DNA from: Tulasnella sp. 424
Taxonomy: Eukaryota > Basidiomycota > Agaricomycetes > Cantharellales > Tulasnellaceae
Assembly: GCA_019633425.1 (NCBI GenBank)
Contig: WSUB01000096.1
Location: 1 to 64,000, forward strand
Reading direction: 5' to 3'
Length of the DNA: 64,000 nt
Shown here: positions 34,395 to 55,369 of the stretch, one piece after another
Numbering within the stretch: position 1 is the stretch's first letter
Layout: every line of letters starts with the position of its first letter
Notes under the pieces: model-generated
What the model saw: the letters and a program-made list of their open reading frames with translations, nothing else
What the model was told of the DNA's origin: nothing
Database searches by the model: none
Program-made: the position numbers and the translations under genes

Positions 34395-35122
34395 GATAAT
34401 GAAGATGCTTCAAGTCTACAACCAACGCACTCCTCTTCTCGAACGAATGGCAATGATTATCCAGCAACCAACAACTTGATCCGCTTGTTGCGGGAAAGAC
34501 CTCAGACACCGGATATCCGAGCACTCCTCCAGAGCGTCGAAATGGTCGGAAATGATCTGAAGAAGAACCAAAACCAACGCTCCCTTGAAACCCTGCTTCA
34601 AACCGCAATAGGACGGTACTGAGACGCTGCCGATGATCCTGCGATGGGTGTGGCGGTACCCCAAGCTTTTGGTAAATTCCAGAAGGAGATCCGGAAGATT
34701 ATAGGAGCAGGCAAAGGGCCGAAAAGTAGGTTTTAGCCCGTACGATGTCCCCGGAAAGAGCCTCCCCGACAAATGCCCTTTTTGGTAGCCACCGTCCCGG
34801 CTGCGCCCAATGAGAGTTTGGCGCCGCAAGTCGACAGCGAGAGCGAAGACTGCCTCGAGTATGAAGATCCTTCGAGGTTGGGAATGGCGGGAAAAGCTGC
34901 AGTTTCCGTCCTAGGTCTGCCGTTTGTGACGGTTGGCGCTGCGCTCGGTGCTGCCGGGAGCATCCTTGGTACGAGTCATATTCTCCACTCAGTGCAGATA
35001 CACGAGATTTTAACGTTATCTACTCACGTGTAGGAGGTGTAGCTACCGCTGTTGACAACATTGGCAAGGCAGCCGGTCCTTCCTCAAGTCGACCAACGAG
35101 GAAGAAGAGCCAGCGGCAGTAG
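34395..35122 (+). pseudogene. Class B array gene, copy 1, damaged
   Basis: A helical segment (NNLIRLLRERPQTPDIRALL, VEMVGNDLKKNQ) runs into TGA at 34619. Homology to copy 2 continues past it (FGKFQKEIRKI). A later exon (about 34797-34968) encodes a Glu-rich linker and a glycine-rich hydrophobic segment (GKAAVSVLGLPFVTVGAALG), then an intron at 34969-35033, then GGVATAVDNIGKAAG and a basic tail. The hydrophobic segment differs from the IFI-like domain. A small extra intron could skip the TGA, so a functional gene is possible. It is the leftmost member of the array. Confidence 0.5.
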
Positions 35123-35384
35123 GGGAGGAGTTTGGGTGTTATGACCAGTCCTTCATCACTTAGTCAAAGCTGAAAACCTTCTCCCCTTGCACGTAGTTCT
35201 AAAATTCAGTCTTGGTTTATTTTGCTATCTTGACGAATGGTCGCTTGACTTGGGCCGACCTGCCATGTGTACCTGTTTGTGCCGACCGACTTGCCCCTTT
35301 TGGAAAATGGAGGACCTCCCACTTAACGTAAGCGGCCTGTTGTCCATTCAGCCGCCGGTTCAGCCACAACCATCGCCATGGTCC

Positions 35385-36033
35385 AAACCTACCCAGCCAC
35401 GATAAAATTGATCGCTCTGCTTCGACAGGCTCCTTAAGCCCCACAGGTTCGAAGTCTTCTCCGCAGTGTCGAGATGGTGCAAGGGTGTTTGCAGGATAAT
35501 GACAACCTTGCGACATTGCGGAGCCTACTTCAAATCGCAAGGGACCGCTATGCCGAGGCTGTCGGGAGGCGAGGCTCAGGGATAGGTCCAGCAGAGATAG
35601 AGGCGTTTGACAAATTCGAACGGGAGATTGAATCTATTCCAGACTTTTGAGCCTTCAGGTGCGAATTCCAGGTCATCCGCAGATGGGAGGGGGCGCCTTT
35701 CGCTCACTTTCCTTAACCTCCGCCAGGCACCTCACGTGCACCGGCTTCGCAATCCGAGGATGAAGAGGAAGAAGAGTCAACGAGGCTGCAGAAGGCGGGA
35801 ACTGCGGCGGTTTCCGTTCTCAGTCTCCCGTTTCTGGCTGTCGGGCAAGTTCTCGGCGCTGCATCTGGTATTCTTGGTAAGACAGCTCTGATTAGCAGGC
35901 GGAAAAAATCACAACCATGGCTTATGCTCTCTCACTATACAGGAGGGGTATCTGGGGCCGTGCAAGATATTGGGAAAGCGCTAGGCCCATCTCAAGCTAA
36001 ACCTAGCCGGAGGACGAGGACAACTCAGCCGTA
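35385..36033 (+). pseudogene. Class B array gene, copy 2, nonsense
   Basis: The same helical block (TIKLIALLRQAP, VRSLLRSVEMVQGCLQDNDN) is interrupted by TAA near 35433, where copy 1 has CAG. The second exon encodes an acidic linker (SEDEEEEES) and AAVSVLSLPFLAVGQVLGAA. An intron at about 35879-35941 precedes GVSGAVQDIGKALG and a basic end. Copy 2 resembles copy 3 more than copy 1. Confidence 0.55.
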
Positions 36034-36139
36034 ACCTTAAGCAGCGGTTAATTACAGACCGACAGTACCTAGGATGTATTCAAGTTTCTCTACTACTCTA
36101 AGCAATGACGTGGACTGGGAGTGTTGGGCAATGGGGAGG

Positions 36140-36560
36140 CGTTTTGCAAGCGCCAAACCTGCTGGGTGGTATGATTCCCGTGAACGTGACTCTTAAAGGC
36201 TTTTGAGACCGTCTTCGTTCTTGAGTGCACTCAGACATCGCGGGTGGCGATAATGAACGAGAATCAATGGGTCGAGTTGGCCGATTGGATCTGAAGCATT
36301 GAGTTTCTAGCGATTTGAATTTGGACGAGACTGGCACAGCCACTGCATGCAACGCACAACGCGCGAGACCAAGTATTGCGTTCCCCCATCTCCTTCAAGC
36401 ACGATCGCGAGTCTATTCCATGATGTGGACTATCATCAAGACAAATACTTCAGCTAGGTTAATCATTTTTGTTTTGGTTACAGCCAAAATATCCACCGCC
36501 TACATACTTGCAGAGTCCAACAGTTGTCGAAACTTGCATCTCCTTCCGTTCGAGTTCGAC
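36140..36560. repeat. Intergenic repeat module, copy 1
   Basis: A block beginning near GATTCCCGTGAACGTGAC (36173) through GGTGGCGATAATGAACG and on to the class A promoter is shared with 38090-38430 and 41045-41500 at high identity. It shows that the duplication unit includes upstream DNA, not only coding exons. Confidence 0.75.
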
Positions 36561-36694
36561 TGCTTCCAGAACGGGCGGCGCACCCAATCGCACCCAAATT
36601 CATACGTCGTCATAGGATCAGGGGATTTCGCATTTTAAATACCCCGGGCGTGCGTTTTGTAACGAATTCTTTCACCCTCGTCCAACCCACTGCC

Positions 36695-37563
36695 ATGTCT
36701 TCCGGATCCACTCCTCGTCCTGGTACCAACTACCCTGGAACAATCACATATCTCAAGCTCGTGTGGGAAAAGATTCCCAACAACGCTGAGTTCGTTCAAC
36801 TATTCAGCCTCATCTCCCGCCTGAACACTTACATTACAACAAATAATCCGAATGATCTGGGATTGGAGGAATTACGAACTCCGTTTATTGCTGTGATGGA
36901 GGAGGCAAATCGAATGAAAGAGGTCATCGAGGCTGACCAACCCCTCAGAGACGCTGACACTGCGTTTCGGGCTGAAATGTTGACCCTTCTCGGGCAGGTG
37001 AAAATCAGAAAGGGTACGTACTCGGTTTGGGGTAAAGCGCATAGCTCTCACGCACTCGTCTTGCTTCAACAGACGAAGCAAAAGCACGGGCTGAAGCTGG
37101 AGCAAAGAATAATAAAAATCGGTTGCTCGCGGCCGCTGCAGGTGTAGCCCTTCTTGGTGGCGGTGCTGTCGTTGTCGGGCCAGCACTTGCCGTTGGTGCT
37201 TTGAACCTGATTGGCTTCAGCTCAATCGGCCCTGTCGCCGGTAAGAAATTAATTCTGATAGAGGAATCTGAACTCCTGACCGGCGGTCTAATCGTTCGAT
37301 ACTTAGGTTCCATCGCTGCGGGTATCCAGTCTGCAGTATATGGGGGAACGGTCGCGTCGGGTTCCATATTTGCCCTTTTCCAAGGCTGGGCTATGGGAGG
37401 CATTGTGATGGGGACTGCTACAGAGATTGCAGCAGGAGTAGCTGCGTTAGGAGCGGGTGCTGGGCTGTTGGGCGGCTTGAGACGCTCGGGTAATAAGGAC
37501 GGCGACGGCGCAGGGTCCAATAAAGCAGGACCCAAAGGACCCAACGACGGTCAGGTACCCTGA
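36695..37563 (+). CDS. Class A IFI6/IFI27-like gene A1
   Basis: Exons 36695-37013, 37073-37240 and 37307-37563 give 247 residues. Residues 1-107 form a helical domain (YLKLVWEKIPNNAEFVQLFS, FIAVMEEANRMKEVIEADQP, FRAEMLTLLGQVKI). A Lys/Ala/Glu linker (DEAKARAEAGAKNNKN) leads to the IFI-like domain: VVGPALAVGALNLIGFSS, GPVAGSIAAGIQSAVYGG, SGSIFALFQGWAMGGIV, AAGVAALGAGAGLLGGL, then an acidic Gly/Asp tail. Human IFI27/IFI6 members are small mitochondrial or ER membrane proteins that modulate apoptosis; fungal roles are not established in my knowledge. Intron 2 (66 bases) is open in frame, so its retention would insert 22 residues. The gene is intact. Confidence 0.72.
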
Positions 37564-37639
37564 ACATGAAGTAGTCAAATGTTCTGGATGTACTGTACCG
37601 TAGAAAAACGGCGCCTTTCATTCACCTGTCGAAACGTCT

Positions 37640-37917
37640 GCCAGACACCTCACGTGCAACAGCTTCGCAGTCCGAGGATGAAGATGAAGAAGAACCAAAG
37701 AGACTTCAGATGGCAGGAACAGCGGCAATTTCCGGTCTCAGTCTCCCGTTTCTGGCAGTCGGGCAGGTTCTAGGCGCTGCATCTGGTATTCTTGGTAAGA
37801 CAGCTCTGATTAACAGGGGGGAAAATCACAACCATGGCTTATGCTCTCTCACTATACAGCAGGGGTATCTGGGGCCGTGCAGGATATTGGGAAAGCGCTA
37901 GGCCCATCTCATTGATC
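37640..37917 (+). pseudogene. Class B array gene, copy 3, 5' truncated
   Basis: Only the linker (SEDEDEEEPKRLQ), the hydrophobic segment (AISGLSLPFLAVGQVLGAAS) and, after an intron, GVSGAVQDIGKALG remain. The helical exon is missing, and the sequence begins right behind the 3' end of A1. The downstream intergenic DNA repeats that of copy 2, so this is a partial duplicate. Confidence 0.6.
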
Positions 37918-38460
37918 TCAAGCTAAACCTAGCCGGAGGACAAGGACAACTCAGCCATAACCTTAAAGAGCGGTTAATTGCAGACCGAAAGTACCTAGGA
38001 TGTATTTAATTTTCTTTACTAGTCTAAGCAATGGCGTGGACTGGGAGTATTGGTGAAGCGTTTTGCAAGCGCCAAACCTGCTGGGTGCCAGTATGATTCC
38101 CGTGAACGTGACTTTTAAAGGCTTTTGAGACCGTCTTCGTTCTTGAGTGAACTGAGACATCGCGGGTGGCGATAATGAACGAAAATCAACGGGTTGAGTT
38201 AGTCGATTGGATCTGGGGCATTCAGCTTCGCGCGATTTGAATTTGCACAGCCACTGCAAGGCACAAGGTGTTAGTCTATTCCATGATGCGAACTAACGTC
38301 AAAAACAAATACTTCAGCTAGGTTAGCCTTTTTGGCTTTGGTCCCAGTCTCATTGCAGAGTCCAACAGTTCTCGAAACATGCATCTCCCATTCGACTGAC
38401 CTCAGAATGGGCGACGCACACAATCGTACAGTACCCAAATCCATACATCTTCATATCGCG

Positions 38461-39063
38461 ATGACGAATTATCGCTTCAACGCAAAGGCTTTCATCCACC
38501 GGTTGCCACCAGATGTACTGGTCGAGGTGCTTCTCATTTCGATCGAGTGGAACGCCTGGAGCATTTGGAGGGTCAGGGAGCTAGTTTCGGTGTCTGGATA
38601 TTGGTCTGACCTCATTCTGGGAACACCGATATTCTGGTCCGTCTTACACTGCTCGTTCCCTCCCAAGGAGTGGGCTATCTTGTTGGTTCGTAATCAACTC
38701 AAGCCGGTCGATTTGCATAACAGAGAACCGGGAGCGGTGAGGCTACGCGTGTCTCGGAGCTGGCTCAGCTTACCGCCGAGCGGTGCGGTTCCTCCCAGTG
38801 AACGAAGCGTAAAGTCGTCTCTGCTATCAAGTTCGGAAGCGGAACCATCAGTCGGAGATGCTACTATCTCGGGGCCGTGTCAAAAAACCCATCATCTAAA
38901 GGGTGTGAACTCTCTGGATTCCGACGGCTATCGAGCACTGCTCGATATGTTAAATCGATGGACCTCCGACCACGTGTTACCAGCTGGACTTTGCATAAAG
39001 CTCGCGCACTGTCAGCAGATTTTCTTCCTTACTCCCACCATCTATGGCTCTCGTCATGGCTAG
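38461..39063 (+). CDS. F-box protein fragment lying in a class A upstream region
   Basis: This 200-residue frame starts with an F-box-like motif (FIHRLPPDVLVEVLLISIEW, then ELVSVSGYWSDLILGTPIFW) but ends after about 200 residues without the usual leucine-rich C-terminal region. The preceding 370 bases (38090-38460) match the upstream module of class A genes, so this F-box sequence sits where a class A start codon would be expected. It overlaps the next gene by 20 bases in another frame. It may be truncated, or only a leader of the downstream gene. Confidence 0.5.
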   Translation: MTNYRFNAKAFIHRLPPDVLVEVLLISIEWNAWSIWRVRELVSVSGYWSDLILGTPIFWSVLHCSFPPKEWAILLVRNQLKPVDLHNREPGAVRLRVSRSWLSLPPSGAVPPSERSVKSSLLSSSEAEPSVGDATISGPCQKTHHLKGVNSLDSDGYRALLDMLNRWTSDHVLPAGLCIKLAHCQQIFFLTPTIYGSRHG

Positions 39064-39813
39064 ACCATATCAAGCAACAGAAGGGCTACTCGAACTGCTC
39101 TTCGAAGAACTCCTTGAGGCCGATACTTACGAACGGCTCTACCAAGACACCAATTCTCTCCGTAATTATCTTGTCGGGACCCCGGAAATCAACCAAGCTT
39201 TGACGGAAGTTGTCAGTCGACTCGTCAACGTTACGAAGAAAGCCAAGGAAGTTAAAGGGAATATAGATTCCAACCAAGCGTTGAAAGAGGCTTACAGTCA
39301 GTTTAAGACTGAGATGTTACGTGTTCTTGGTCCTCTCTTGCTACGAAGCCGTTAGTATTCAGTTCTACACTCGTGTGCTCCTTTATCTGTCGGGGAGCTG
39401 TTGTTGACCCTCCCTATCTTCCTGCAATCATCCCGAAGCGGCAGCGAAGGTGGCAGGTGTAGGTCTTCTAGCGGCCGGTACCGCAGCTGTCGTTCCCGCG
39501 TTGGCCGTGGGGGCATTGGGTGTGGTCGGATTTAGTTCAGCGGGTCCAGTCGCTGGTGAGTGTCCATCCCTCCCATACTGGAAAGGCCGCCACCGACGGA
39601 TTGATCGATTGACTACGTTCCTTCTGATCAGGCTCTCTCGCGGCGGCCATTCAGTCTATATTTTACGGTGGAGCCGTCGCATCTGGATCTGCTTTCGCAC
39701 TATGTCAAGGCGCTGCGATGGGAGGAATTGTGGTGGGCAGTGTAGTAGAGATTACTGCGGGTGTTGTTGCTCTCGGCGGGGCTGCCAGGCTTCTGCATAG
39801 ACCGCAGCCATAG
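39044..39813 (+). CDS. Divergent class A IFI-like gene
   Basis: Exons 39044-39350, 39439-39555 and 39632-39813 give 201 residues. The helical domain (YQATEGLLELLFEELLEADT, AYSQFKTEMLRVLGPLL) is recognisably related to, but far from, the others, and there is no MSSGST start. The IFI-like domain is typical: AAVVPALAVGALGVVGFSSA, GPVAGSLAAAIQSIFYGG, SAFALCQGAAMGGIVVG. The intron positions match A1, although intron 2 is longer (76 bases) and unrelated in sequence. That makes it an old member rather than a recent duplicate. The donor of intron 1 is the weaker GTTAGT. MARPYQ at 39056 is an alternative start. Confidence 0.62.
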
Positions 39814-40033
39814 GACAGGAGCGATTTTGCTTGGCTTAGAATGTCGTGCTCCACCAGTCCTAGTGCATCTCGACACAGACTAAGGTTCTCCTCGGTTGAA
39901 TATCACCAAGTAGGAAATGCTGCTGAAGATTTCATGGACATATCTTGCGAACGGTTCATTTTGAGAACCGAAAGGCTCTGAGGGGCGATCCGCGGGAGTG
40001 TTGTCCATTTGCGAGTGTGGCGAGGCAGCACCT

Positions 40034-40137: not shown

Positions 40138-40961
40138 ATGCCCAACTATCCTGGAACAAGCTCATATCTCCACCTTGTTCGGGAAAGATATCCAACCAAC
40201 GCTGAATATGTTCAGCTCTTCATCCACCTCTCACAGCTCAACACCTATATTACCACAACCAATAAAAATGCTCTGAAATCGGACGTATTACGACCTCACT
40301 TTATTGCCGTGATGCAGAAGGCAAATCAGATGGGAGCGGTCATCGAGGCTGACCAACCCGTTAAAGACGCCGATGTTGCGCTTCGGGCTGAAATGGTGAC
40401 CCTTCTCGGGCAGGTAAAAATCAGAGAGGGTACGTACTCGATCGAGGGTAACACACACTGTTCTCAAGGCCTGGTTCTCGTTTGACAGATGAAGCAAGAG
40501 CACGGGCAGAAGCCGAAGAGAAGAATAAAAATCGGTGGTTCGCAGCCATTGCAGGAGGAGCACTTCTTACAGTCGGTGCCGTCTTTGTCGGGCCAGCTAT
40601 TGCTGTTGGTGCTCTGAACTTAATTGGCTTCGGCTCGCTCGGTCCCGTCGCCGGTAAGAATCTAATTGGGATAAAGGAATCAGAACTCTTGAACGGCAGT
40701 CTAATCGTTGTATCCTTAGGTTCCATCGCTGCGGGTATCCAGTCTGCAGTATATGGAGGAGCGGTCGGGGCCGGTTCTATCTTCGCTCTTTGCCAGAGCG
40801 CTGCAATGGGAGGCATTGTGGTGGGGAGTGCTGTTGAGATTGCAGCGGGAGTAGCTGCGTTAGGCGCGGGTGCTAGGCTCATAGGCGGCTTAGGAGGGTC
40901 GGATGGTAACGACGACGCAGGGCCGGACGAAGCGGGGTCCGACAACGGTCATGGACCTTGA
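40138..40961 (+). CDS. Class A IFI6/IFI27-like gene A2
   Basis: Exons 40138-40429, 40489-40653 and 40720-40961 give 232 residues. The first 27 bases of coding sequence found in A1 (the MSSGST segment) are deleted, and translation starts directly at MPNYPGTSSYL. The helical domain reads YVQLFIHLSQLNTYITTTN and FRAEM-like ALRAEMVTLLGQVKI. The linker is DEARARAEAEEKNKN. The IFI-like domain has AIAVGALNLIGFGSLGPVAG, SIAAGIQSAVYGGAVGAGS and FALCQSAAMGGIVVG, then an Asp-rich tail. Splice sites are intact, and the 66-base intron 2 is again open in frame. Confidence 0.7.
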
Positions 40962-41044
40962 ATTCGATACTAAAATTGATATTCAAGATATCAAGTGTTC
41001 TGGACGTACCGTAGTAAACGTATTTTCGATCATATTGCATCCGT

Positions 41045-41560: not shown

Positions 41561-42587
41561 ATGTCTTCCGGATCCACTCATACCGGTACCAACTACCCTG
41601 GAACAATCACATATCTCCAGCTCGTGTAAAAGATTCTCAACAACGCTGAGTTCATTCACCTATTCACCCTCATCTCCCGCCTGAACACCTACATTACATC
41701 GAACGATCCAAATGATCTGGGATCGGAGGCATTACGGGCTCCGTTTATTGCTGTGATGGAGGAGGCAAATCGAATGAAAGAGGTCATCATGGCTGACCAA
41801 CCCCTCAAAGACGCCGACGTTGCGTTTCGGGCTGAAATGTTGACCCTTCTCGGACGGGTAAAAATCAGAGAGGGTACGTACTGGGTTGGGTAAAGCGCTT
41901 AGCTCTCACCCACTCGTCTTGGTTCGACAGACGAAGCAAAAGCACGGGCTGAAGCTGAAGCGAAGAATAATAAAAATCGGTTGCTCGCGGCCGCTGCAGG
42001 TGTAGCCCTTCTTGGTGGCGGTGCTGTCGTTGTCGGGCCAGCACTTGCCGTTGGTGCTTTGAACCTGATTGGCTTCAGCTCAGTNNNNNNNNNNNNNNNN
42101 NNNNNNNNNNNNNNNNNNNNNNNNNNNNNNNNNNNNNNNNNNNNNNNNNNNNNNNNNNNNNNNNNNNNNNNNNNNNNNNNNNCCCTTCTTGGTGGCGGTG
42201 CTGTCGTTGTCGGGCCAGCACTTGCCGTTGGTGCTTTGAACCTGATTGGCTTCAGCTCAGTCGGCCCTGTCGCCGGTAAGAACTTAATTCTGATAGAGGA
42301 ATCTGAACTCCTGACCGGCGGTCTAATCGTTCGATACTTAGGTTCCGTCGCTGCGGGTATCCAGTCCGTAGTATATGGGGCAGCGGTCGCGTCGGGTTCC
42401 ATATTTGCCCCTTTCCAAGGCTGGGCTATGGGAGGTATTGTTGGGGAGTGCTACTGAGGTTGCAGCAGGAGTAGCTGCGTTAGGAGCGGGTGCTGGGCTG
42501 TCGGGCGGCCTGAGACATTCGGATAATAACGACGGCGACGATACAGGGTCCAATGAAGCAGGATCCAACAACGGTTGGGTATCTTGA
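41561..42587 (+). pseudogene. Class A gene A3, nonsense and frameshift, crosses an assembly gap
   Basis: Compared with A1, a 3-base deletion near 41625 joins codons into TAA after only about 22 residues. In exon 3, near 42440, the reading frame shifts and stops after GGIVGECY. Exon 2 is interrupted by the N run 42085-42182, with identical sequence on each side. The rest is nearly identical to A1 (recent duplicate), including the intron with CTAAT branch point. It is not expected to make a full protein. Confidence 0.8.
42085..42182. other. Assembly gap with duplicated flanks
   Basis: A run of 98 N. The 79 bases before it (42006-42084) and after it (42183-42261) are identical, so the gap probably separates overlapping contig ends and does not represent missing DNA. 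Confidence 0.85.
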
Positions 42588-42845
42588 ACTTGACTAGAAA
42601 TTTGATATCACAGCATTCAAAGGTTCTGAACGTAGCGTATCCGCTGGTTCAGAAGTGTGCATTCTCAACATCCTTTTCCGCCATTTGACATCCCATTAGC
42701 ATCAAAGCGGAATATCAGCCGACGCTATTAAACCCGTTGGCCTCATTAAAGCCTTGCCTTTCATTGACCCACCTAGTACGACGCCGCCCCCCCCCCCTCC
42801 CCAAATATTTTTATTAATACTCCGATTTCAATACGAACAACTATA

Positions 42846-43013
42846 ATGGTCTCCTCACAGCCGACCTGGTTCTCGGAGGTAGTACAGGGGTTGCCCTAGC
42901 AGCTGCTGTCGCTTTATGCTTATTGGGATCCGGCGTTATGGGACGAATTGCGGTCAGCACCCCTTCAGCCAGTTGTTGGTGCCCTCGGAATACTCGCTAC
43001 AGCTTTGATTTGA
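42846..43013 (+). pseudogene. Class C IFI-like relic 1
   Basis: The start region (ATGGTCTCCTCACAGCCG, preceded by ATACGAACAACTATA) matches class C genes, but the middle of the domain is deleted. Fragments of the end (GTCAGCAC, CAGCCAGTTGTTGGTGCCCT, GCTTTGATTTGA) follow directly. A close sibling lies at 51984-52151. Confidence 0.65.
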
Positions 43014-43391
43014 AATCGAGCAGTGAGCGTGTACCATAAGTAATGATTTAAGACGGTCCATGTTGTCGATAGAGTTTGAATGTATGCGATTTCTCGCGGC
43101 CGCCGTTACCCGAGTATCCGCGGGACGCCGACCATTCTTGTCACCGGCCTCCAGGCAACTCTATCAAGCATTTCACTGAGATATCATGCGCGCCCGAACG
43201 GTCCATTTCGAAATAGTGAAAAGGGTCGATCTGCGGGGGGTGTTGTCTATTTGTTAGCGTGGCGTAGAAGCACAATTACCATATAAAGTAAATTTCTGGC
43301 CCTCCAAGGGTCAGGGGATTCCGCCTTTGAATATCCGGACATACATTTTGTAAACACCTCATTTACAGTACCCCCATACAGCAACACCCCT

Positions 43392-44234
43392 ATGTCTTCT
43401 GGTTCCACTCATCGTCCTGGTTCCAACTATTCTGGAACAAGCACATATCTCCAGCTCGCGTGGAAAAGTTTTTTTACCGACAGCTTTGATTTCATTCGAC
43501 TATTCAGCCTCATCTCCCACCTGAACACCTACATTACAACAACCAGATGGAATGATCTGAGATCGGAGGCATTAAGAGCACCATTTATTGCAGTGATGGA
43601 GGAGGCAAATCGGATGAGAGAGGTCATCGAGGCTGACCAACCCCTCAAAGACGCCGACATTGCGTTTCGAGCTGAAATGCTAACCCTTCTCGGACAGCTA
43701 AAAATCAGAGAGGGTACGTATTCGGTCGAGAGTAAAGCGCATAGCTCTAAGCATTCGGTTTGCTCAACAGATGAAGCAAGAGCACGGGCTGAAGCCGAAG
43801 CAAGAGCACGTGCTGAAGCCGAAGCGAGGGCTAAGCGGTTGCTCGCAGCCGCTGCACTTCTTACAGTCGGTGCCATCTTTGTTGGGCCAGCACTTGCCGT
43901 TGGTGGTTTGAATCTGATTGGCTTCAGCTCAGTCGGCCCTGTCGCCGGTAAGAACCTAATTCTGAGAAAGGAATCCGAACTCTCGAACGGCAGTCTAATC
44001 GTTGTAACCTCAGGTTCCATCGCCGCGGGTGTCCAATCTGCAGTATATGGAGGAGCGGTCGCGTCCGGTTCGATCTTTGCGCTTTGCCAGAGCGCCGCTA
44101 TGGGAGGTATTGTGGTGGGGAGTGCTGCTGAGATTGCAGCAGGAGTAGCTGCGTTAGGAGCGAGTGCTGGACTGTTGGGCGGCTTGGGAGGCTCGGATAA
44201 TAACGACGGCGTGCGACGACGCAGGGTCCAATGA
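43392..44234 (+). CDS. Class A IFI6/IFI27-like gene A4
   Basis: Exons 43392-43713, 43771-43947 and 44014-44234 give 239 residues. In this copy both introns (57 and 66 bases) are multiples of three without stops, so the whole gene is one open frame of 280 codons even unspliced. The linker is expanded by a tandem duplication of an eight-codon unit (ARAEAEAR twice). The IFI-like domain reads GPALAVGGLNLIGFSSVGP, SIAAGVQSAVYGGAVASGS and FALCQSAAMGGIVVGSAAEI. The acidic tail is replaced by VRRRRVQ through a small insertion near 44210, making the C-terminus basic. Confidence 0.7.
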   Translation: MSSGSTHRPGSNYSGTSTYLQLAWKSFFTDSFDFIRLFSLISHLNTYITTTRWNDLRSEALRAPFIAVMEEANRMREVIEADQPLKDADIAFRAEMLTLLGQLKIREGTYSVESKAHSSKHSVCSTDEARARAEAEARARAEAEARAKRLLAAAALLTVGAIFVGPALAVGGLNLIGFSSVGPVAGKNLILRKESELSNGSLIVVTSGSIAAGVQSAVYGGAVASGSIFALCQSAAMGGIVVGSAAEIAAGVAALGASAGLLGGLGGSDNNDGVRRRRVQ

Positions 44235-44637: not shown

Positions 44638-45473
44638 ATGTCTTCTGGCTCCACTCCTCCTCCCGGTGCCAACTATCCTAGAACAAGCACGTATCTCCAG
44701 CTCGTGCGGGAAAAGATTCCCAACAACGTTGATTTCATTCGACTATTCAGCCTCGTCTCCTACCTGAACACCTACATTACAACAAACAATCCGAATGATC
44801 TACGATCGGAGACATTACGAACTCCGTTTATTGCCGTGATGGAGGAGGTAAAACGGATGAAAGAGGTGTTCGAGGCCGACGAACCCCTCAAAGACGCCTA
44901 CGTTTTGTTTGAAGCTGAAATGGTCCACGTTCTCGGACAGGTCAAAATCAGAGAGGGTACGTATTCGGTCGGGAGTAAGCCGCATAGCTCTCATGCACTC
45001 GTTTTGGCACGACAGATGAAGCAAAAGCAAAAAAACGGTGGCTCGCAGCCGCTGCAGGTGGAGCCCTTCTTACAGTCGGTACCGTCGTTGTCGGGCCAGC
45101 GCTCGCCGTTGGTGGTTTGAAATTGATTGGCTTCCGCTCAGTCGGCCCTCTCGCCGGTAAGAACTTAATTCTGATCAAGGAATCCGAACTCCTGACCTGC
45201 AATCTAATTGTCTAATGCTTAGGTTCCATCGCTGCGAGGATTCAGTCTGCCGTATATGGAGGAGCAGTCAGGTCGCGTTCAATCTTTGCCCTTTGCCAAA
45301 GCGCGGTAATGGGAGGTATTGCAGTGGGGAATGCTACTGAGAATATTGCAGCAGGAGTCGCTGCGTTAGGAGCGGGTGCTGGACTGTTGGGCAGCTTGGG
45401 AGGCTCGGATAATGACGACGGCGACGACGCAGGGTCCAATGAAGCAGAATCCAATAACGGTCAGGTACACTGA
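44638..45473 (+). CDS. Class A IFI6/IFI27-like gene A5
   Basis: Exons 44638-44956, 45016-45156 and 45223-45473 give 236 residues. The helical domain (YLQLVREKIPNNVDFIRLFS, FIAVMEEVKRMKEVFEADEP, FEAEMVHVLGQVKI) is close to A1. The linker is shortened to DEAKAKKRW. The IFI-like domain has some charged substitutions (SIAARIQSAVYGGAVRSRS) that put Arg into the usually neutral hydrophobic stretch, which may weaken membrane insertion. Intron 2 contains an in-frame TAA, so here it must be spliced. Confidence 0.68.
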
Positions 45474-45945: not shown

Positions 45946-46340
45946 TTGAACAAGCACATATCTCCCGCTCGCGCGGAAAAGTTTTTTTACCGACCATGCT
46001 GATTTCGTTCAACTATTCAGCCTCATCTCCCACCTGAACAACTACATTACATTAACCAGTTGGAATGATCTGCAATCGGGGGCATTACGAGCTCCATTTA
46101 TTGCCGTGATGCCGGAGGCAAATCGGATGAGAGTGGCCATCGAGGCTAACCAACACCTCAAAGACGCCGACATTGCGTTTCGAGCTGAAAAGCTAACCCT
46201 TCTCGGACAGCTAAAAATCAGAGAGGGTACGTATTCGGTCGAGAGTAAAACGTATAGCTCTCATGCACTCGTTTTGGCTCAAGAGATGAAGCAAAAGCAC
46301 GGGCTGAGGCCGCAGCGAGGGCTTAGCGGTTGCTCGCAGC
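45946..46340 (+). pseudogene. Class A gene A6, 5' truncated and cut short
   Basis: The copy starts inside the helical exon (ACAAGCACATATCTCC) without ATG or MSSGST, is otherwise A4-like through exon 1 and intron 1, and then breaks in exon 2 right after the linker (TTGCTCGCAG), where foreign sequence begins at about 46340. No IFI-like domain remains. The conserved promoter block at 45898 is still upstream. Confidence 0.75.
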
Positions 46341-46558
46341 GGGTCTAAGAGAGCACGAGAGTGCGATAAAACCTGTGTTGATTCGACAAAGAATCAACCG
46401 GGTCTAATAGATACAGGCAGTGAAAGGGAGAATGTTTAAATAAGGAAACAACAACAGAGTGCGGACCGGGATCAACTCTCGATCCGAATCTGGGCGCATA
46501 CCAGTGGGTCGGCGACCTCGGACCGGAACGGGAGCGGCACGGGTCCGTTCCTGACACA
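46340..46558 (-). mobile_element. Possible solo LTR inserted in A6
   Basis: About 218 bases unrelated to the array interrupt it. On the minus strand they begin TGTCAGGAACGGACCCG, the style of fungal Ty3/Gypsy LTR starts, with a TATTTAAAC box inside. The proposed far end is CTTAGACCCGCTG. No internal retrotransposon sequence or clear target duplication is visible. Confidence 0.4.
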
Positions 46559-46646
46559 CGCTTACCATAAAAGGGAATTCCTGGCCCTCCAAGGATCAGT
46601 CTTTGTAAAACTCTCTTAAATTGTACCCTCGTACAACACTACTCTC

Positions 46647-47475
46647 ATGTCTTCGGGTTCCACTGCTCGTCCCGTTGCCAACTATCCTGGAACGAGCGAA
46701 TATCTTCGGCTTGCCAGCGACGCTGATTTCATTCAACTATTTAGCCTCCTCTCATATATCAATACCTATATTACAACAACTAATCGGAATGATCTAAAAT
46801 CGGAGGCATTGCGAGCTCCGTTCACTGCCGCGATGGAGGAGGCAAATCGGATGAAAGAGGTCATCGAGGCTGACCAACTCCTCAAAGCCGCTGACGCTGC
46901 GTTTCGAGTTGAAATGGTCACCCTTCTCGGTCAGGTACAAATTAGAGAAAGTACGTATTCAAACCACATGGCTCTCATACACTTATTTTGACTCAACAAA
47001 TAAAACAAACCCCCGGGCTAAAGCTAAGGAAAATCTGCGGTTCGCAGCCGCTGGAGCCCTTCTTACAGTCGGTGCCGCCGTCGTTGTCGGGCCAGTACTT
47101 GCCGTTGGTGCTTTGAACATGATTGGCTTCAGCTCAGTCGGCCCTGTCGCTGGTAAGAACCTAATTCTGAGAAAGGAATCCGAACTCTTGAACGGCAGTC
47201 TAATCGTTGTAACCTTAGGTTCCGTCGCCGCGGGTGTCCAGTCTGCGGTATATGGAGGAGCGGTCACGTCCGGTTCGATCTTTGCGCTTTGCCAGAGCGC
47301 CGCTATGGGAGGTATTGTCATGGGGAGTGCTGCTGAGATTGCAGCAGGAGTAGCTGCGTTGGGAGCGGGTGCTGGACTGTTGGGCGGCTTGGGAGGCTCG
47401 GATAATAACGACGACGCAGGGCCGGACGAAGCAGGGTCCGACAACGGCCATGACGACGCATGGACCCTTATTTGA
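46647..47475 (+). pseudogene. Class A gene A7, intron 1 acceptor lost
   Basis: Exon 1 (46647-46950) encodes a good helical domain (FIQLFSLLSYINTYITTTN, FTAAMEEANRMKEVIEADQL). Intron 1 has the donor GTACGT, but the acceptor is CAACAA instead of CAACAG. The domain exons (GPVLAVGALNMIGFSSVGP, intron 47153-47218, SVAAGVQSAVYGGAVTSGS, FALCQSAAMGGIVMGSAAEI, acidic tail) are otherwise intact, with open intron 2. A downstream AG might rescue splicing, so I call it a probable rather than certain pseudogene. Confidence 0.5.
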
Positions 47476-47765: not shown

Positions 47766-48092
47766 ATGGGTCTCCTCACAGCCGCACTTATTGTTGGAGG
47801 TGGCGCGGCAGTCGCTCCAGCAGTAGCCGTCGGTGCCTTAGGTTTGTTGGGATTTAGCGCGATGGGACCGGTAGCAGGTCAGACTTCATTTGCTCTTCCC
47901 TACATTGACTGATACCTCTTCGCCATAACAGGCTCGGTAGCTGCTGGTATTCAGGCCTCTGTTTATGGAGGAGCTGTTGGCTCCGGCTCGCTATTCGCGA
48001 TGGCCCAGAGCGCCGCGATGGGAGGGATTGCAATCAGCACGAGTCAAACTGTTGGGGGTACCCTCGGAATGGTGGCTGCAGCTTTGACCTGA
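47766..48092 (+). CDS. Class C small IFI6/IFI27-like gene C1
   Basis: Exons 47766-47877 and 47932-48092 give 90 residues, essentially a bare IFI-like domain: MGLLTAALIVGGGAAVAPAV, AVGALGLLGFSAMGPVAG, then SVAAGIQASVYGGAVGSGS, LFAMAQSAAMGGIAISTSQT and GGTLGMVAAAL. The size and the GF, AG and QS positions match animal ISG12-type proteins, with two hydrophobic hairpins expected in a membrane. The intron interrupts PVAG-S exactly where class A intron 2 does, tying the classes together. The gene is intact. Confidence 0.75.
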
Positions 48093-48484: not shown

Positions 48485-49305
48485 ATGTCTTCTGGTTCCA
48501 CTTCTCGTCCTGGTTCCAACTATCCTGGAACACGCACATATCTCCAGCTCGTGTGGAAAGAGATTTCCAACGTCAAAAGCGTTGATTTTATTCAACTATA
48601 CAGCCTCATCTCACACCTAAACGCTTACATTACAACAAACAGTCCAAATAATCTACGATTGGGGGCATTACGAGCTCCGTTTATTGCCGTGATGGAGCAG
48701 GCAAATCGAATGAAAGGGGTCATCGAGGCTGCCCAGCCCCTCAAAGACGCAGACGTTGCGTTTCGAATTGAAATGCTCATCCTTCTCGGACAGGTAAAGA
48801 TCAGAGAAGGTACGTAATCAGTCGAGAATAAAATACATGGCTCTCATCCACTCATTTTATAAAATAAAAAACACGGGCTAAAGCTAAAGCGAAGAATAGA
48901 AATCGGTGGCTCGCAGCCGCAGGTGGAGCCCTTCTTACAGTCGGTGCCGTCGTTGTCGCGCCAGCGCTTACCGTTGGTGCTCTGAAACAGATTGGCCTTC
49001 ACTCAGTCGGCCCTGTCGTCAGTAAGAACCTAATTCTGATGATGGAATCCGAACTCCTGATCGGTGGGCTAATTGTTTAATGCTTAGCTTACATCGCTGC
49101 GGGAATCCGGTCTGGAGCGGTCAGGTCGGGTTCTATCTTTGGCCTTCGCAGAAGCGCGGCTATGGGAGGTGATGCGGTGGACAGTGCTGCTGAGATGATT
49201 GCAGCAGGAGTAGCTGCGTTAGGAGCCAGTGCTGGACTGTTAGGCTTGGGAGGCTTGGGAGGCTCGGATAATAACGAGGGCGACGATGCATGGTCCCATA
49301 TTTGA
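48485..49305 (+). pseudogene. Class A gene A8, decaying
   Basis: Exon 1 (48485-48809) is intact (FIQLYSLISHLNAYITTNS, FIAVMEQANRMKGVIEAAQP). The polypyrimidine and CAG acceptor of intron 1 are replaced by an A-rich stretch (TAAAATAAAAAACACGGGC). The domain has several hits: IGLHSVGPVVS for the usual IGFSSVGPVAG, and a 12-base deletion removing AVYG after the intron. The frame stays open to TGA at 49303. I think this copy no longer makes a normal protein. Confidence 0.6.
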
Positions 49306-50340
49306 AGCAGGACCCAACAACGGTCAGCTACCCTGAACCTGAAGTACTCGTACCGTAGAAAACGTTTTCTCATTCAAACAGCTGCTTTGACTGGCTTCAG
49401 CCGCATGCGTTCTGCCACACCTGTTGCTCTATTTAGCAATACTGCGCTCACCACCCAACGCTTAATTCACCGATATCTTCCATATCTGAGAAACGATAAG
49501 CTTGTAAATTGGAATCACAATACTAACATAGAATCCAAATGGAATGGTGGTATTTGTATGCTGAAAAACTGCCGAGTCCGCGGCAGTAAATATTTTGCGC
49601 AAGGAGACAAAATGAGAAGTGTAAGTGCGCACTTCATGCCCTTCTTCCCAGATTTTATGAGTGTACATTTCTAGAACAAAGCAAAGAACGTAGGAAATGG
49701 TCCAGCTGAGCGTCGAAGAAAGCGCCGGTACTTTCGCTTTGTGGTGGGTGGAAACAACGAAATATAGCTTGGGAGACGAGTGAAGTGATTCAACGCGTGA
49801 CAACGCTTTTGTTTTGCAATGACTTGCATAATCTGCTAAAAGCGTCTCCCGCCCCCACCCCGCCCAAGGAAGCCTCCGGAACGTCACCGAGCCACCGAGA
49901 AACTCGGAAAAGTGTTCAAAAGTGGCGCGGGACGCTTGGATCCCTCGGCATTAGGGTGGAGGACCACGGGCTTAGACATGGGTTGCAGTTGGGGCCAACG
50001 CAATGAGGGTGCACAGACTTATGCAAGTCATTGTGGTGCCCTGCTCGGCAACGCAGTGTCACGCTCCGTGATCTTTCGTAACGGTCTGTGACCATTTGAT
50101 TTTTAGGACGCTTTGGGAGCGCGACCTCGTGCCCCCCTGACCTTACCGCAAGCCGTCCTTCCCGCTCTTAGCCAAGATACTTCGTGTTTTTATTCCTGGT
50201 ATAGTAGGCTCCCTGCATACGAGATCTCTCCGCTATCAAACAAGAACTGCGAGGGATGTGAGGTGGTGCATCTGGAATGGAGCGTTGGGTGGTGGAGCGC
50301 GGTATTCCATTGGCCTGGAGGCGAAGTTTCCTAATCAGCT
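49306..50340. other. Intergenic, no gene recognised
   Basis: The first 150 bases are the usual class A 3' flank (GCTTCAGCCGCATGCGTTCT). 49.46-50.28 kb is unrelated to the array repeats and has no recognisable gene. It contains one GGGACGCTT word like the 8.5 kb repeat. Confidence 0.35.
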
Positions 50341-50477
50341 GACCTTTTCAGCACGTTGGCCGTACAATATAAAAATCCCCGTTTTTCATTTGACACCCCT
50401 TGCAATTCCAAACAATCCTCCCTAAACCCTCTCGTGTCCGTATTATCGATACTCCATTTTCAGTAAAAGCAACTATC

Positions 50478-50824
50478 ATGGGTGTCCTCACAGCCGCTCT
50501 TATTGCTGGAGGTGGCGCGGCAGTCGCCCCAGCAGCAGCTGTTGGTGCTTTAGGTTTGTTGGGATTTAGTGCGGCGGGACCGGTAGCAGGTCAGACTGGC
50601 TAGTTCAACACATGTGTCCTTCCGTACGTTGGCTGATACCCCTTTGCACAACGTATATAACAGGCTCGGTGGCTGCTGGTATTCAGGCCTCTGTTTATGG
50701 AGGAACTGTTGGCTCCGGCTCGCTATTTGCGATGGCCCAAAGCGCCGCAATGGGAGGGATTGCAGTCAGCGCGGCTCAAACTGTTGGAGGTGCCCTCGGA
50801 GCGGCGGCTGCAGCTTTGATCTGA
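50478..50824 (+). CDS. Class C small IFI6/IFI27-like gene C2
   Basis: Exons 50478-50589 and 50664-50824 give 90 residues: MGVLTAALIAGGGAAVAPAA, AVGALGLLGFSAAGPVAG, SVAAGIQASVYGGTVGSGS, LFAMAQSAAMGGIAVSAAQT and GALGAAAAALI. It is close to C1 but has a 74-base intron. Residues are almost only Gly, Ala, Ser and aliphatic, so membrane association is expected. It is the first gene of a two-gene unit duplicated at 53.5-55.1 kb. Confidence 0.75.
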
Positions 50825-51461
50825 AAGCGATCACTGAAAAGCAATTTTGTGTACTTGTGTAGCGTGTTCTTTTGTTAGCGCCGTGTCTAAATGTATCGTA
50901 TCGTTGGTCATCTCCACTTTCGAGAACGTTCTGGTCGACGGCCTCCAAGAAACTGATTAATTCCGGATGAACCTCGATACACCTTGCACAGCAATGTTTG
51001 AAATAGAGCTATCTTTACCCTCTTGCCGTCACGTACTGTGGTTCACCAGAGTCGATAGCAAACCGCATGGTACCGGCCGTGCACCTCTACAGCTTCTTCG
51101 GGTTCTAAAGCATGATTGATACATGAGGTGAACACGAGGAATAAGAACTCTTTTGAGTATTGTGACTCTCAATTGTGAAAGCTGCTGCATGTGTACAGAC
51201 CAGATTCTAGAAAAGTTGACCTCGGTGCCGAAGCCGATCAAACTTTCCTAAAAAGGCAAATCGTTGGACCTTCCAGCTTATGTCAGCCAACCCTCAGCTT
51301 CGTACAAAACTCAGCCCATCTAACTCCCCCAACATCAAAGAAAACCACTTGCATCACCACCCACCAAGTGCTCAATACGTTCTTCCCCACTTGTCTTATC
51401 CCCTCCTCGCCCTCATCGAATACTCTCCCACCAAACCCTCCCCCCCCCCACCCAACCACAA

Positions 51462-51746
51462 ATGTTCGGTTTAATCGCTGCGGCCAAGATCGCACTCGTC
51501 GTCGGCGGTACAGTCGCCGTCGCACCCGCTCTCGCCGTTGGAGGGCTTGGCCTATTAGGGTTCAGCGCTGCCGGTCCTGTCGCCGGTACAATAGCAGCTG
51601 GCGTCCAATCCGCCGTCTACGGAGGCGCCGTAGGCTCGGGATCCCTCTTCGCGATGGCTCAAGGTGCTGCCATGGGGGGAATCGCAGTCAGCGCTGTGCA
51701 GACTGTTGGAGGTGCTCTCGGATACGTCGCTGCAGTCCTCATCTAG
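51462..51746 (+). CDS. Class C small IFI6/IFI27-like gene C3, intronless
   Basis: One uninterrupted frame gives 94 residues: MFGLIAAAKIALVVGGTVAV, ALAVGGLGLLGFSAAGPVAG, TIAAGVQSAVYGGAVGSGS, LFAMAQGAAMGGIAVSAVQT and GALGYVAAVLI. The intron present at PVAG-S in all other classes is precisely absent. The leader (ACCCAACCACAA before ATG) is pyrimidine-rich and differs from C1/C2, so this is a separate subclass with its own promoter. Confidence 0.75.
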   Translation: MFGLIAAAKIALVVGGTVAVAPALAVGGLGLLGFSAAGPVAGTIAAGVQSAVYGGAVGSGSLFAMAQGAAMGGIAVSAVQTVGGALGYVAAVLI

Positions 51747-51983
51747 TAAGCGACCGGAATGTGGATGTCAATGCGCTAGGCCATGGATAGGCGCTTTGTA
51801 CTTCATCATGGACTTTGCCCCTTTTTTGCTGCTTGTCGAATGTATACCCAACGGGAGCTGTACGAGAATGAAAGGAATGGCGGACCATTAAATGCTTTCT
51901 TTGTATTGACACACCCTATAATCACCCCCACCCCTCTCCTACCATTCCTATCGATACCCAAGTTTCAATACGAACAAATATTA

Positions 51984-52151
51984 TGCATTTCCTCGCAGCT
52001 GACCTGGTTCTTGGAGGTGGTGCAGTGGTTGCCCTAGCAGCTGCTGTCGGCTTTTGGCTTATTGGGATCCGGCGCTATGGGACGAATTGTGGTCAGCACC
52101 CCTTCAGCCAGTTGGAGGTGCACTCGCAGTACTCACTGCAGCTTTGATTTC
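51984..52151 (+). pseudogene. Class C IFI-like relic 2
   Basis: ATGCATTTCCTCGCAGCTGA and TTGGAGGTGGTGCAGTGG match class C starts, but the central part is missing and the end (GTCAGCACCCCTTCAGCCAG, then GCTTTGATTTC) follows without an open frame. It shares its deletion with the relic at 42846, so the two are copies of one already broken gene. Confidence 0.65.
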
Positions 52152-52496
52152 AAGGTAGCCGTGAGCGTGTGCCATAAGTAATGATTTAACACGGTCCATC
52201 TTGTCAATAGAGTCTGACTGTATACGGTTTCCGCCGCTACTGTTACCCAAGTATGGAACCTTGTCGCCGGCTTCCAGGCGACTCGATCAAGCATATATCA
52301 TGCGCACCCAGTCCATGTCGAAAACCGAAATGCCACAAGGCCGATCCACGGGAATCTTGCTTATTTGTGAGTGACGTAGGAGCACCGTAACCATATAAGG
52401 GAAATTCCTGGCCCTCCGAGATCCGATCCCGAGATCTCGAGAATCAGCGGGTGCGCTGTGGCAACGAACTCTTTACCATCATTCAACAACACCCTT

Positions 52497-53266
52497 ATGT
52501 CTTCAGGTTCCACATCAATTCACCATACCGAATATCCCGGAACACATGCGTACCTACAGCTTATCCTGAATCGGATGGAGAGTAAAGATGATTACAACAA
52601 AGTACTCATCTATCTCTCCCAGCTCAAGGATTATATTATAACACACGATGCAAACACAATGAAGTTAGAAACACTGCGAAATCGGTTCATTTCTGTGATG
52701 AAGGAGGCTAACCGAATAAAGGAAGTCCTCGAGGCCGATCAGCCAGTAAAGGCCGCAGACCTTGCCTTTCGAGCTGAAATATTGACCCTTCTTGGACAAT
52801 TGAAACTCAGAGACGGTACGCATTCCGTCGAGTGTAAAGGGCATATTTTTCAAACACCAGTTCTCGTTTCACAGATGAAGCCGAAGCGAAGAGGAATAGA
52901 AATCGGTGGTTCGCCGGAGCCCTTCTTACAGTTGGTGCCGCCATTGTCGGGCCAGTGCTTGCCGTTGGTGCTTTGAACCTGATTGGCTTCAGCTCAGTCT
53001 GCCCTGTCGCCGGTAAGAACCTACTTATGATAGAGGAATCCGAACTCCTAACCGGCGGTCTAATTGTCTAATGCCCAGGTTCCATGGCTGCGGGTATCCA
53101 GTCGGCCGTATATGGAGGATCGGTCACGTCGAGTTCTGCTTTTGCCTTCTGCCAAAGGGCGGCTATGGGAGGTATTATGGTAGGGAGTGCTGCTGGGATT
53201 GCAGCAGGAGTAGCTACGTTAGGAGGGGGTACTGCTCTGTTGGGCGGCCTGGGGGGGGCCGGATAA
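52497..53266 (+). CDS. Class A IFI6/IFI27-like gene A9
   Basis: Exons 52497-52815, 52875-53012 and 53079-53266 give 214 residues. The helical domain is the most diverged of the standard copies (YLQLILNRMESKDDYNKVLI, FISVMKEANRIKEVLEADQP, FRAEILTLLGQLKL), which suggests an older lineage. The linker is DEAEAKRNRNRW. The IFI-like domain has Cys for Gly in VCPVAG and an SSSAFAFCQRAAMGGIMVG block. A homopolymer (eight G near 53250) shifts the frame so that the protein stops at GGAG without the acidic tail. Intron 2 has an in-frame stop. Confidence 0.62.
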
Positions 53267-53637
53267 CAACGACAACGACGGCGATGGCGACGGCGCAGGG
53301 TACAATGAAACAGGACCCAACAACGGTTAGGTACCCTGAATTTAAAGGATTCAAATGCTCTGGATGTACTGTACCGTAGAAAACGTGTTCTCGATCAAAG
53401 TGCAGAGGCTTCGACTGGCTTCAGAAGCATGCGTTCTGCTACTTGGCCTCGAGGCGGACTTTCCTAATCCCGGAAACAGTGGCCCTCCAGATGACGTTAT
53501 CAAATATATTGGCCGCATGCTATAAAAATCCCCGCCTTGCATTTGACACCCCTTGCAATTTCAACCAACCCCCCTCCTCCCCCCAAAACTTTCGTGTCTG
53601 ACTTATCAATACTCCATTTGCAATAGGAGCAATTATC

Positions 53638-53990
53638 ATGGGTCTCCTCAGAGCCGCTCTTATTGTTGGAGGTGGCGTGGCAGTTGCGCCAGCAGTAGCT
53701 GTCGGTGCTTTAGGTTTGTTGGGTTTTAGTGCGGCGGGACCGGTAGCAGGTCAGACTGGCTAGCTCGACTCATGTGCTCTTCCCAACGTTGACTGACACC
53801 CCTTCGCCGAACGTATATAACAGACTCAGTGGCTGCTGGTATTCAGGCCACTGTTTATGGAGGAGCTGTTGGCGCCGGCTCGCTATTTGCGATGGCCCAA
53901 AGCGCGGCTATGGGAGGGACTCGGATTGCAGTCAGCGCGGCTCAAACTGTTGGAGGTGCCCTCGTGATTATGGCTGCAGCTTTGATCTGA
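53638..53990 (+). CDS. Class C small IFI6/IFI27-like gene C4
   Basis: Exons 53638-53749 and 53824-53990 give 92 residues. Relative to C2 there is an extra pair of codons (GGTRIAVS), Arg for Thr near the start (MGLLRAALIVGGGVAV), and Asp at the splice junction (PVAD-SVAAG) because exon 2 begins ACTC instead of GCTC. The intron sequence is nearly identical to that of C2, so the split is recent. Confidence 0.72.
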
Positions 53991-54560
53991 AAGTGATCAC
54001 TGAATAGCGATTGTGTGTACTTGTGTAACGTTGGCGACTGTGTCTGAACGTATCGTATCGTTGGTCATCCCCACTTTCGAGATTGTTCTGGTCGACGGCC
54101 TCCAAGAAATTAAACAACTCTGGATAAACCTCGATGCACCTTGCACGACAACGTTTGAAATAGGGCTATCTTTCTTTGCAATTACCCTCTTGCCGTCACC
54201 TACGTGGTTCACCAGAGTCGATAGCAAACCGCCGGCCGCGGGCCTCCGCAGCGCCTTCGGTTCTAAAGCATGATGGATAAATAAGGTGGACTAGGGACTC
54301 TCTTGAATGTGGTGACTCTCTAGAAAAGTTTACCTCGGTGCCGGAGCTATTTCCTTAAAAGGCAAATCGTTGGACCTTCCAGCTTATGTCAGCTCGGGTT
54401 CGTACAAAACTCGGCCCACCCAGCTCCCTCAACAGCAAAGAGAACCACTTGCATCCACCACCCCCAAGTACTTGATACTTTCTTCCCCACTTGTCTTATT
54501 ATTCCCTCGTCACCCTCCCCGAATACTCTCCCACCAACCCCCCCACCCAACCAACAACAA

Positions 54561-54845
54561 ATGCTCGGCTTACTCGCTGCGGCCAAGATCGCACTCGTCG
54601 TCGGCGGTACAGTCGCCGTCGCACCCGCTCTCGCCATTGGAGGGCTTGGCCTGTTAGGCTTTAGCGCTGCCGGTCCTGTCGCCGGTACAGTCGCAGCTGG
54701 CGTCCAATCCGCCGTGTACGGAGGCGCCGTAGGCTCGGGATCCCTCTTCGCCATAGCTCAAGGTGCTGCCATGGGGGGAATCGCAGTCAGCGCTGTGCAG
54801 ACTGTTGGAGGTGCTCTCGGATACGTCGCTGCAGTCCTCATCTAN
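54561..54845 (+). CDS. Class C small IFI6/IFI27-like gene C5, intronless, at an assembly gap
   Basis: The 94-residue frame is nearly identical to C3 (MLGLLAAAKIALVVGGTVAV, ALAIGGLGLLGFSAAGPVAG, TVAAGVQSAVYGGAVGSGS, LFAIAQGAAMGGIAVSAVQT). The last codon base falls in the N run. The same 3' end reappears after the gap and shows the TAA stop at 55019-55021. Only one gene copy should be counted. Confidence 0.7.
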
Positions 54846-54943
54846 NNNNNNNNNNNNNNNNNNNNNNNNNNNNNNNNNNNNNNNNNNNNNNNNNNNNNNN
54901 NNNNNNNNNNNNNNNNNNNNNNNNNNNNNNNNNNNNNNNNNNN
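54845..54943. other. Assembly gap with duplicated flanks
   Basis: A run of 99 N. The 78 bases ending at 54844 and the 78 bases starting at 54944 are identical, again pointing to unmerged contig overlap inside a repeat. Confidence 0.85.
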
Positions 54944-55369
54944 TGCCATGGGGGGAATCGCAGTCAGCGCTGTGCAGACTGTTGGAGGTGCTCTCGGATA
55001 CGTCGCTGCAGTCCTCATCTAAGCGACCGGAATGTGGATTGATTTCGGTGCAGCCAATGCGCTAGGCCATGGATAGGCGCTTTGTACTTCATCAATCGGA
55101 CTCCTCCTTTTTTTTCTCCCCTTGTCAAATGTATACCCAACGAGAGCTGTACGAGAATGAAAGGAATGGCGGACTAGGGCAGTCGCCCATCCACGAGTGT
55201 ACGAACTTGCCTTCGAAAGACATAGCTGGCGTGAGGTTGAACGCAAATCAAGTATGTACATTGGAGATACAAGCTAGAGAGATGTTACAAGGTCGTACGC
55301 GAACTACACAGTGGAGTCAAGATGTACAATGGATGGTAAAAGGCGTGAAACAAGAAAGAAAACGTTATT

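Follow-up and report, generated by a model that had tools for sequence, protein, structure and literature searches.

What is a dense tandem array of genes resembling the interferon-induced IFI6 and IFI27 (ISG12) genes of animals doing near a chromosome end in a fungus, where, to our knowledge, no interferon system is to be expected? The locus lies in Tulasnella sp. 424 (assembly GCA_019633425.1; 46.8 Mb in 448 contigs), within the first 64 kb of contig WSUB01000096.1 (C445 below; 162,567 bases), and this 64,000-nucleotide stretch is hereafter called the window. An earlier note on the window had described seventeen or more copies or relics with one Gly/Ala-rich domain, assigned them to the Ifi-6-16/ISG12 family, and suggested a part in cell death, defence or self/non-self recognition.

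A tandem array of Ifi-6-16-like genes

The array spans 34.4-55.0 kb of the window on the + strand. We counted 17 family units in it, comprising ten long units, five short units and two short relics (Table 1), and kept three look-alikes, the third-type units T1, T2 and T3, out of this count. Some Ifi-6-16 domain is retained in 16 of the 17, including nine of the ten long units; the domain has been lost from Lf, such that the figure of seventeen copies or relics stands if Lf is included, while the domain itself is found in 16. A motif scan of both strands printed matches for the + strand only and, together with a scan of open reading frames (ORFs), placed the copies where the earlier note had put them. 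When we searched the genome with a long copy, all 25 exon-level matches with an expectation value (E) of 0.001 or less (31 candidates, all scored) fell on C445. The tandem array is thereby confirmed. As a telomeric repeat, (CTAAC)n on the + strand, i.e. (TTAGG)n, occupies positions 1-111 of the window at the contig start, 34 kb away, we consider this dense array to be subtelomeric, as had been claimed.

The telomeric repeat itself has a 5-base unit as in insects, unlike TTAGGG, and (TTAGG)n telomeres are reported for Rhizoctonia in a published study (PMC7884421). Five such units in a row also occur within the first 160 bases of seven other contigs (C55, C118, C231, C277, C391, C399 and C412), in the same orientation throughout, as well as at inner places in C10, C14 and C448.

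Two runs of N interrupt the array, at 42085-42182 and 54845-54943, and each is bordered on both sides by exact copies of the same sequence, of 79 and 78 bases, respectively. Because of these duplicate flanks we read both runs as spurious gaps, introduced where the ends of contigs overlap, and the apparent extra copies across them were rejected as an overlap artefact. Collapsed copies are possible.

Family membership was assessed by hmmscan of spliced or intronless proteins against the Pfam profile PF06140 (Ifi-6-16), whose curated cut-off is 29.1 bits. Ten proteins were scored (Sa, Sb, Sc, Sd, Se, La, Lb, Ld, Le and Li), with Lc, Lf, Lg, Lh, Lj and the relics outside the set. The cut-off was reached by seven of the ten, namely all five short proteins, Sc lying exactly at it, and two of the five long ones (Ld and Lb). 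E-values ranged from 1.5e-5 to 4.2e-8 for nine of the proteins and stood at 0.0014 for Li, and in the short copies the profile aligned across nearly the whole domain. None of ten shuffled versions of the Sb and Ld domains matched PF06140, which rules out an artefact of Gly/Ala composition; one shuffle gave an unrelated weak match (E 0.012). Significant hits to the family were thus found, and the assignment of the array proteins to Ifi-6-16/ISG12 is supported at the level of sequence. Unspliced pieces of the array scored 18-22 bits where they matched, which is under the cut-off.

A second tandem cluster of PF06140 genes, four in number, is located at 70.7-75.5 kb of contig C45 (111,614 bases). 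It contains the sole place in the genome to exceed the cut-off in a six-frame search (33 bits), among three C45 places listed, and three of its genes, once joined by eye, scored 37.8, 40.5 and 45.8 bits. Sb is 46% identical to a C45 gene over 63 residues (E 3e-9). The cluster shares with the array its Pfam family, its tandem layout and, in the three joined genes, the place and phase of an intron; it differs in its N-terminal sequence and in having four genes only, and it lacks the N-terminal domain described below. The array and the C45 cluster are the two places at which we found the family in this genome, and additional members elsewhere are possible, since the genome searches ignore introns and score the best candidates only.

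Gene architecture and the N-terminal domain

The earlier note had taken the array for a single kind of gene, and here it needs revision: there are at least two kinds, plus the look-alike third. It also overlooked a separate N-terminal domain, encoded by exon 1 of the long copies. Exon structures were established from open frames and GT-AG sites. In the long units, exon 1 encodes an N-domain of approximately 107 residues, and the Ifi-6-16 domain is assembled from exons 2 and 3. After intron 1 (GTACGT or GTACGC at its start, CAG at its end) comes a charged linker, which leads into the first half of the Gly/Ala-rich domain; intron 2 (GTAAGA to TAG or CAG) lies in phase 1 within the last Gly of GPVAG; and exon 3 supplies the other half (SIAAGxQSAVYGG) and, after it, a polar tail. 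Once spliced, five of the ten long units (La, Lb, Ld, Le and Li) have an uninterrupted frame from ATG to stop, while at least four (Lc, Lf, Lg and Lh) are visibly damaged.

The short units Sa to Se encode the Gly/Ala-rich domain by itself, in approximately 90-94 residues. Sc and Se are intronless, and Sa, Sb and Sd carry a phase-1 intron at the same codon as the long units. This intron, at the Gly codon between GPVA and SxAAG, is common to the five modelled long units, the three split short units and the three joined C45 genes, with the exception that in Sd the joined codon is Asp.

Seven long copies (Lb, Ld, Le, Lf, Lg, Lh and Li) have AATTYCTGGCCCTCC upstream, and in five of these the TATA-like CCATATAA precedes it in the pattern used; La, Lc and Lj are without AATTYCTGGCCCTCC. 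Given these shared upstream elements, promoters may have travelled along with the long units.

Third-type units have an N part that starts near YPAT; their short Gly/Ala-rich part is interrupted by an intron. No kinship to the long N-domain was found for T2, whose N part fails to align with it. In a search of its own genome this N part finds itself and T1 only, and the unspliced pieces of T1 and T2 matched no Pfam family at E up to 1.

The long N-domain is predicted to be a helical bundle (predicted local distance difference test, pLDDT, 87; predicted template modelling score, pTM, 0.79). Within the genome it was found in the array only, in 10 units; one further match had an E of 0.48, and with two query sequences nothing was found elsewhere at E below 0.4. 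No Pfam family was matched at E up to 1, either by the Ld N-domain alone or by the N part of five spliced long proteins, and no profile of HeLo, HELL or other fungal death domains in Pfam matched it. Sequence matches to solved structures were at chance level only. The N-domain of Lj is 25-29% identical to those of the other long copies, yet the pairing of N-domain and Ifi domain is kept. Scans of viral contigs gave 13 pattern matches for the Ifi domain and 21 for the N-domain, none a confirmed relative, and 53 Ifi-domain pattern matches in GTDB prokaryote genomes likewise included none; these scans depend on short conserved stretches, which distant relatives can escape.

Table 1. Units of the array and third-type look-alikes, in window coordinates. 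Scores are for PF06140.
Unit	Kind	Position	Strand	Exons	Bits	Remarks
T1	third-type	34395..35122	+			bounds by eye; N part and short Gly/Ala-rich hydrophobic part; stops in frames read
T2	third-type	35379..36034	+			bounds by eye; layout as T1; early stop in N part
La	long	36695..37563	+	36695-37013, 37073-37240, 37307-37563	27.9	open when spliced; N-domain and Ifi-6-16
T3	third-type fragment	37600..37901	+			by eye
Lj	long, most divergent	39002..39813	+	Ifi exons near 39438-39560, 39622-39813		open stretches for exons
Lb	long	40138..40961	+	40138-40429, 40489-40653, 40720-40961	30.8	open when spliced
Lc	long, damaged	41561..42607	+			stop in exon 1; N run with 79-base duplicate flanks in exon 2; stop in last-exon frame as read
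Relic 1	short-type relic	42846..43015	+			by eye
Ld	long	43392..44234	+	43392-43713, 43771-43947, 44014-44234	33.0	open when spliced
Le	long	44638..45473	+	44638-44956, 45016-45156, 45223-45473	25.3	open when spliced
Lf	long, damaged	45947..46348	+			stop replaces first residues; second stop, at exon 2 start; no Ifi domain left
Lg	long, damaged	46647..47475	+			Ifi domain open; usual intron 1 acceptor changed (only usual acceptor considered)
Sa	short	47766..48092	+	two exons	33.1	
Lh	long, damaged	48485..49305	+			usual intron 1 acceptor changed (only usual acceptor considered); intron 2 junction bases altered
Sb	short	50478..50824	+	50478-50589, 50664-50824	33.3	
Sc	short	51462..51746	+	intronless	29.1 (at cut-off); six-frame 28.5	94 residues
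Relic 2	short-type relic	51984..52153	+			by eye
Li	long, mosaic	52497..53266	+	52497-52815, 52875-53012, 53079-53266	18.9	open when spliced; divergent exon 1 and intron 1, ordinary remainder
Sd	short	53638..53990	+	two exons	33.4	
Se	short	54561..55022	+	intronless	30.7; six-frame 28.5	N run 54845-54943 with 78-base duplicate flanks

Constraint and mosaic copies

Pairwise ratios of nonsynonymous to synonymous substitution (dN/dS; Nei-Gojobori) had medians of 0.47 in exon 1 (range 0.23-0.93; 7 copies, 21 pairs), 0.46 in exon 2 (range 0.19-1.11; 6 copies, 15 pairs) and 0.35 in exon 3 (range 0.22-0.58; 6 copies, 15 pairs), where constraint is strongest; for exons 2 and 3 joined, that is, the Ifi domain, the median was 0.39 (6 copies, 15 pairs). 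The exon 1 set was taken without Lc, Lf and Lj, and those for exons 2 and 3 also without Lh; the nonsynonymous-to-synonymous ratio pN/pS was taken from the exon 1 set less Li. Two copies with damaged splice sites were retained, Lg in all of the dN/dS sets and Lh in that for exon 1. Over the six exon 1 copies that remained, pN/pS was 0.60, with a codon bootstrap of 0.45-0.83 and values of 1 or more in 1 of 2000 replicates. Ratios near 1 are limited to alignment columns 15-34 of exon 1, around helix 1 (pN/pS 1.05; remaining windows 0.46-0.90), and to single pairs at the upper ends of the exon 1 and exon 2 ranges. On these ratios the coding sequence is under average constraint, weakest near helix 1, rather than under overall diversifying selection.

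Several copies are mosaics. Ld and Lg differ at 13 of 266 sites over intron 2 and exon 3, compared with 94 of 498 over exon 1, intron 1 and exon 2 (P 2e-8). Exon 1 and intron 1 of Li differ from La at 134 of 378 sites and from Le at 139 of 378, and its remainder differs at 75 of 389 (P 7e-7) and 68 of 380 (P 6e-9), respectively. The control pair La-Le has no step in divergence (P 0.70). The pairs were picked after viewing a table of 28 pairs, and the P values are uncorrected for that choice. The simplest reading of these patterns suggests that the mosaic copies arose by gene conversion or unequal exchange. Mosaic copies and relics also bear out the turnover that had been proposed for the array, in which some copies are in decay.

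Possible roles of the array proteins

We tentatively favour a reading that is possible rather than probable, in which a birth-and-death array of Ifi-6-16/ISG12 proteins provides a membrane module, either bare or bearing a regulatory N-domain, as a stress or defence dial. The short proteins would be the bare module, a helical hairpin rich in Gly and Ala and seated in an internal membrane (of mitochondria or the endoplasmic reticulum, ER), and the long proteins the same module on a cytosolic helical bundle that senses, oligomerises or docks. A signal read by the N-domain would alter the packing of the membrane module and, through it, cell fate, organelle stress or the permeability of the membrane. 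N-domains would be reshuffled against membrane modules by gene conversion and by unequal exchange near the chromosome end, and the whole array would act as such a dial, a role proposed for its animal relatives, rather than in housekeeping. It is the membrane location, the regulation and the biological role that we infer here; the hairpin is drawn from 19-residue hydropathy peaks of 1.8 (Sb) and 2.2 (Ld) and from knowledge of the family, as the structural model of the Ifi domain is poor.

The profile matches, the shared phase-1 intron, the modelled N-domain with its pairing kept in Lj, the dN/dS medians and the mosaic copies speak for this reading, and the family itself gives it a precedent. 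Effects of animal members on cell death, the antiviral state and mitochondria are described in two articles (PMC5850085, PMC9144789), the former, a review, also describing conflicting results on the family. With IFI6, IFI27, IFI27L1/2 and shrimp LvIFI6-16 (Ifi-6-16/ISG12, or FAM14) the array shares the PF06140 profile, a hydrophobic Gly/Ala-rich character and short copies of approximately 90 residues, and it differs in the N-terminal helical domain added to its long copies and in the gathering of some 17 units in one array. Among fungi, a pairing of domains like that of the long copies is given for Thielaviopsis punctulata KKA29592.1, in which Ifi-6-16 is joined to Ferritin_2, a different partner, as a lone entry in a secretome table (PMC10051545).

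Several results weigh against the favoured reading. La, Le and Li fall below the Pfam cut-off even when spliced (Table 1), and in the six-frame search of the genome no place in the array exceeded it, Sc and Se coming closest. The AlphaFold model of the Sc Ifi domain has three helices at a pLDDT of 50. Fold matches of the N-domain are helical bundles in general with no family prominent, although the absence of a family from that search excludes nothing. A classic arms-race receptor is hard to square with a dN/dS that averages below 1, and no NACHT place lay in C445 among 91 scored of 165 candidates.

The array might instead be the product of subtelomeric amplification with little function, in which unequal crossing-over multiplied a once-useful gene and most copies are drifting into pseudogenes. 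The damage to at least four of the ten long units, the two short relics, the mosaic copies and the telomeric repeat 34 kb off would all fit, and the low ratios could in part stem from constraint that predates duplication. Against this, the reading frame is still open in five long copies and in the short ones, with GT-AG introns or none, paralogue dN/dS averages below 1, and the exon 1 bootstrap almost never reached 1; we consider the account somewhat unlikely. A non-immune membrane role, in which small Gly/Ala-rich proteins shape organelle membranes or buffer ER or mitochondrial stress and were amplified for dosage, would suit the several similar short copies and the strong constraint on exon 3. 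Subtelomeric, fast-turnover arrays are, however, unusual for housekeeping genes, and such a role seems to us unlikely.

A different mechanism is suggested by the joining of a helical bundle to a hydrophobic module: the N-domain would kill the membrane and the Ifi domain would anchor it, in the manner of HeLo or MLKL executioners, during fungal allorecognition or antiviral cell death. Helical bundles of the MLKL, HeLo and HELL kinds take part in the death of animal and fungal cells, according to a 2025 review of regulated cell death in fungi (PMC12881547), and the four-helix bundle of MLKL, like HeLo and HELL, resembles the array's N-domain in that a protein with a membrane-type part bears a wholly helical bundle at its N terminus. 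The abundance of NACHT places in the genome (at least 91, with 91 scored of 165 candidates) would also favour an executioner. The N-domain differs from these systems in having neither a Pfam match nor a significant fold match, and this, with the lack of a NACHT place in C445 among those scored, makes an executioner quite unlikely. By the same count of NACHT places, the genome's set of genes like those for NOD-like receptors (NLRs) is very large.

The surroundings of the array hold further features. An F-box-like ORF at 32.1-33.2 kb flanks it (its Pfam match lies below the family's cut-off), and another at 55.4-56.9 kb, with a fragment at 38.3-39.1 kb, was recognised by eye, with no Pfam match. 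Positions 8589-8768 are minisatellite-like, the core being close to GGGACGCTTAT. No hydrophobin was found in the genome, in a search whose own controls likewise gave no signal.

The literature that we found on the Ifi-6-16 family is nearly all animal, and among the titles listed for Ifi-6-16, ISG12, FAM14 or IFI27 in fungi we found no report of such an array. Term searches of the accessible text likewise gave no mention of IFI, ISG12 or interferon in the 2025 review (PMC12881547), nor of Ifi-6 or interferon in a 2014 survey of NLRs (PMC4986451). The role that the earlier note had suggested is not supported as it stands, given an average dN/dS below 1 and no NACHT place in C445 among the 91 scored. 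With its natural series of copies, long, short and mosaic, this fungus provides an interferon-free genetic system for the domain's own action, in which one can ask whether the domain tunes cell death or defence outside animals. The boldest form of the idea, a long shot in our estimation, is a fungal repertoire of interferon-type effectors in which N-terminal helical sensors, shuffled by gene conversion, are joined to an ISG12 membrane-active domain and accompanied by short ISG12 partners, for recognition of non-self or mycoviruses. If true, ISG12-type effectors would be an old eukaryotic defence module and not an animal invention.

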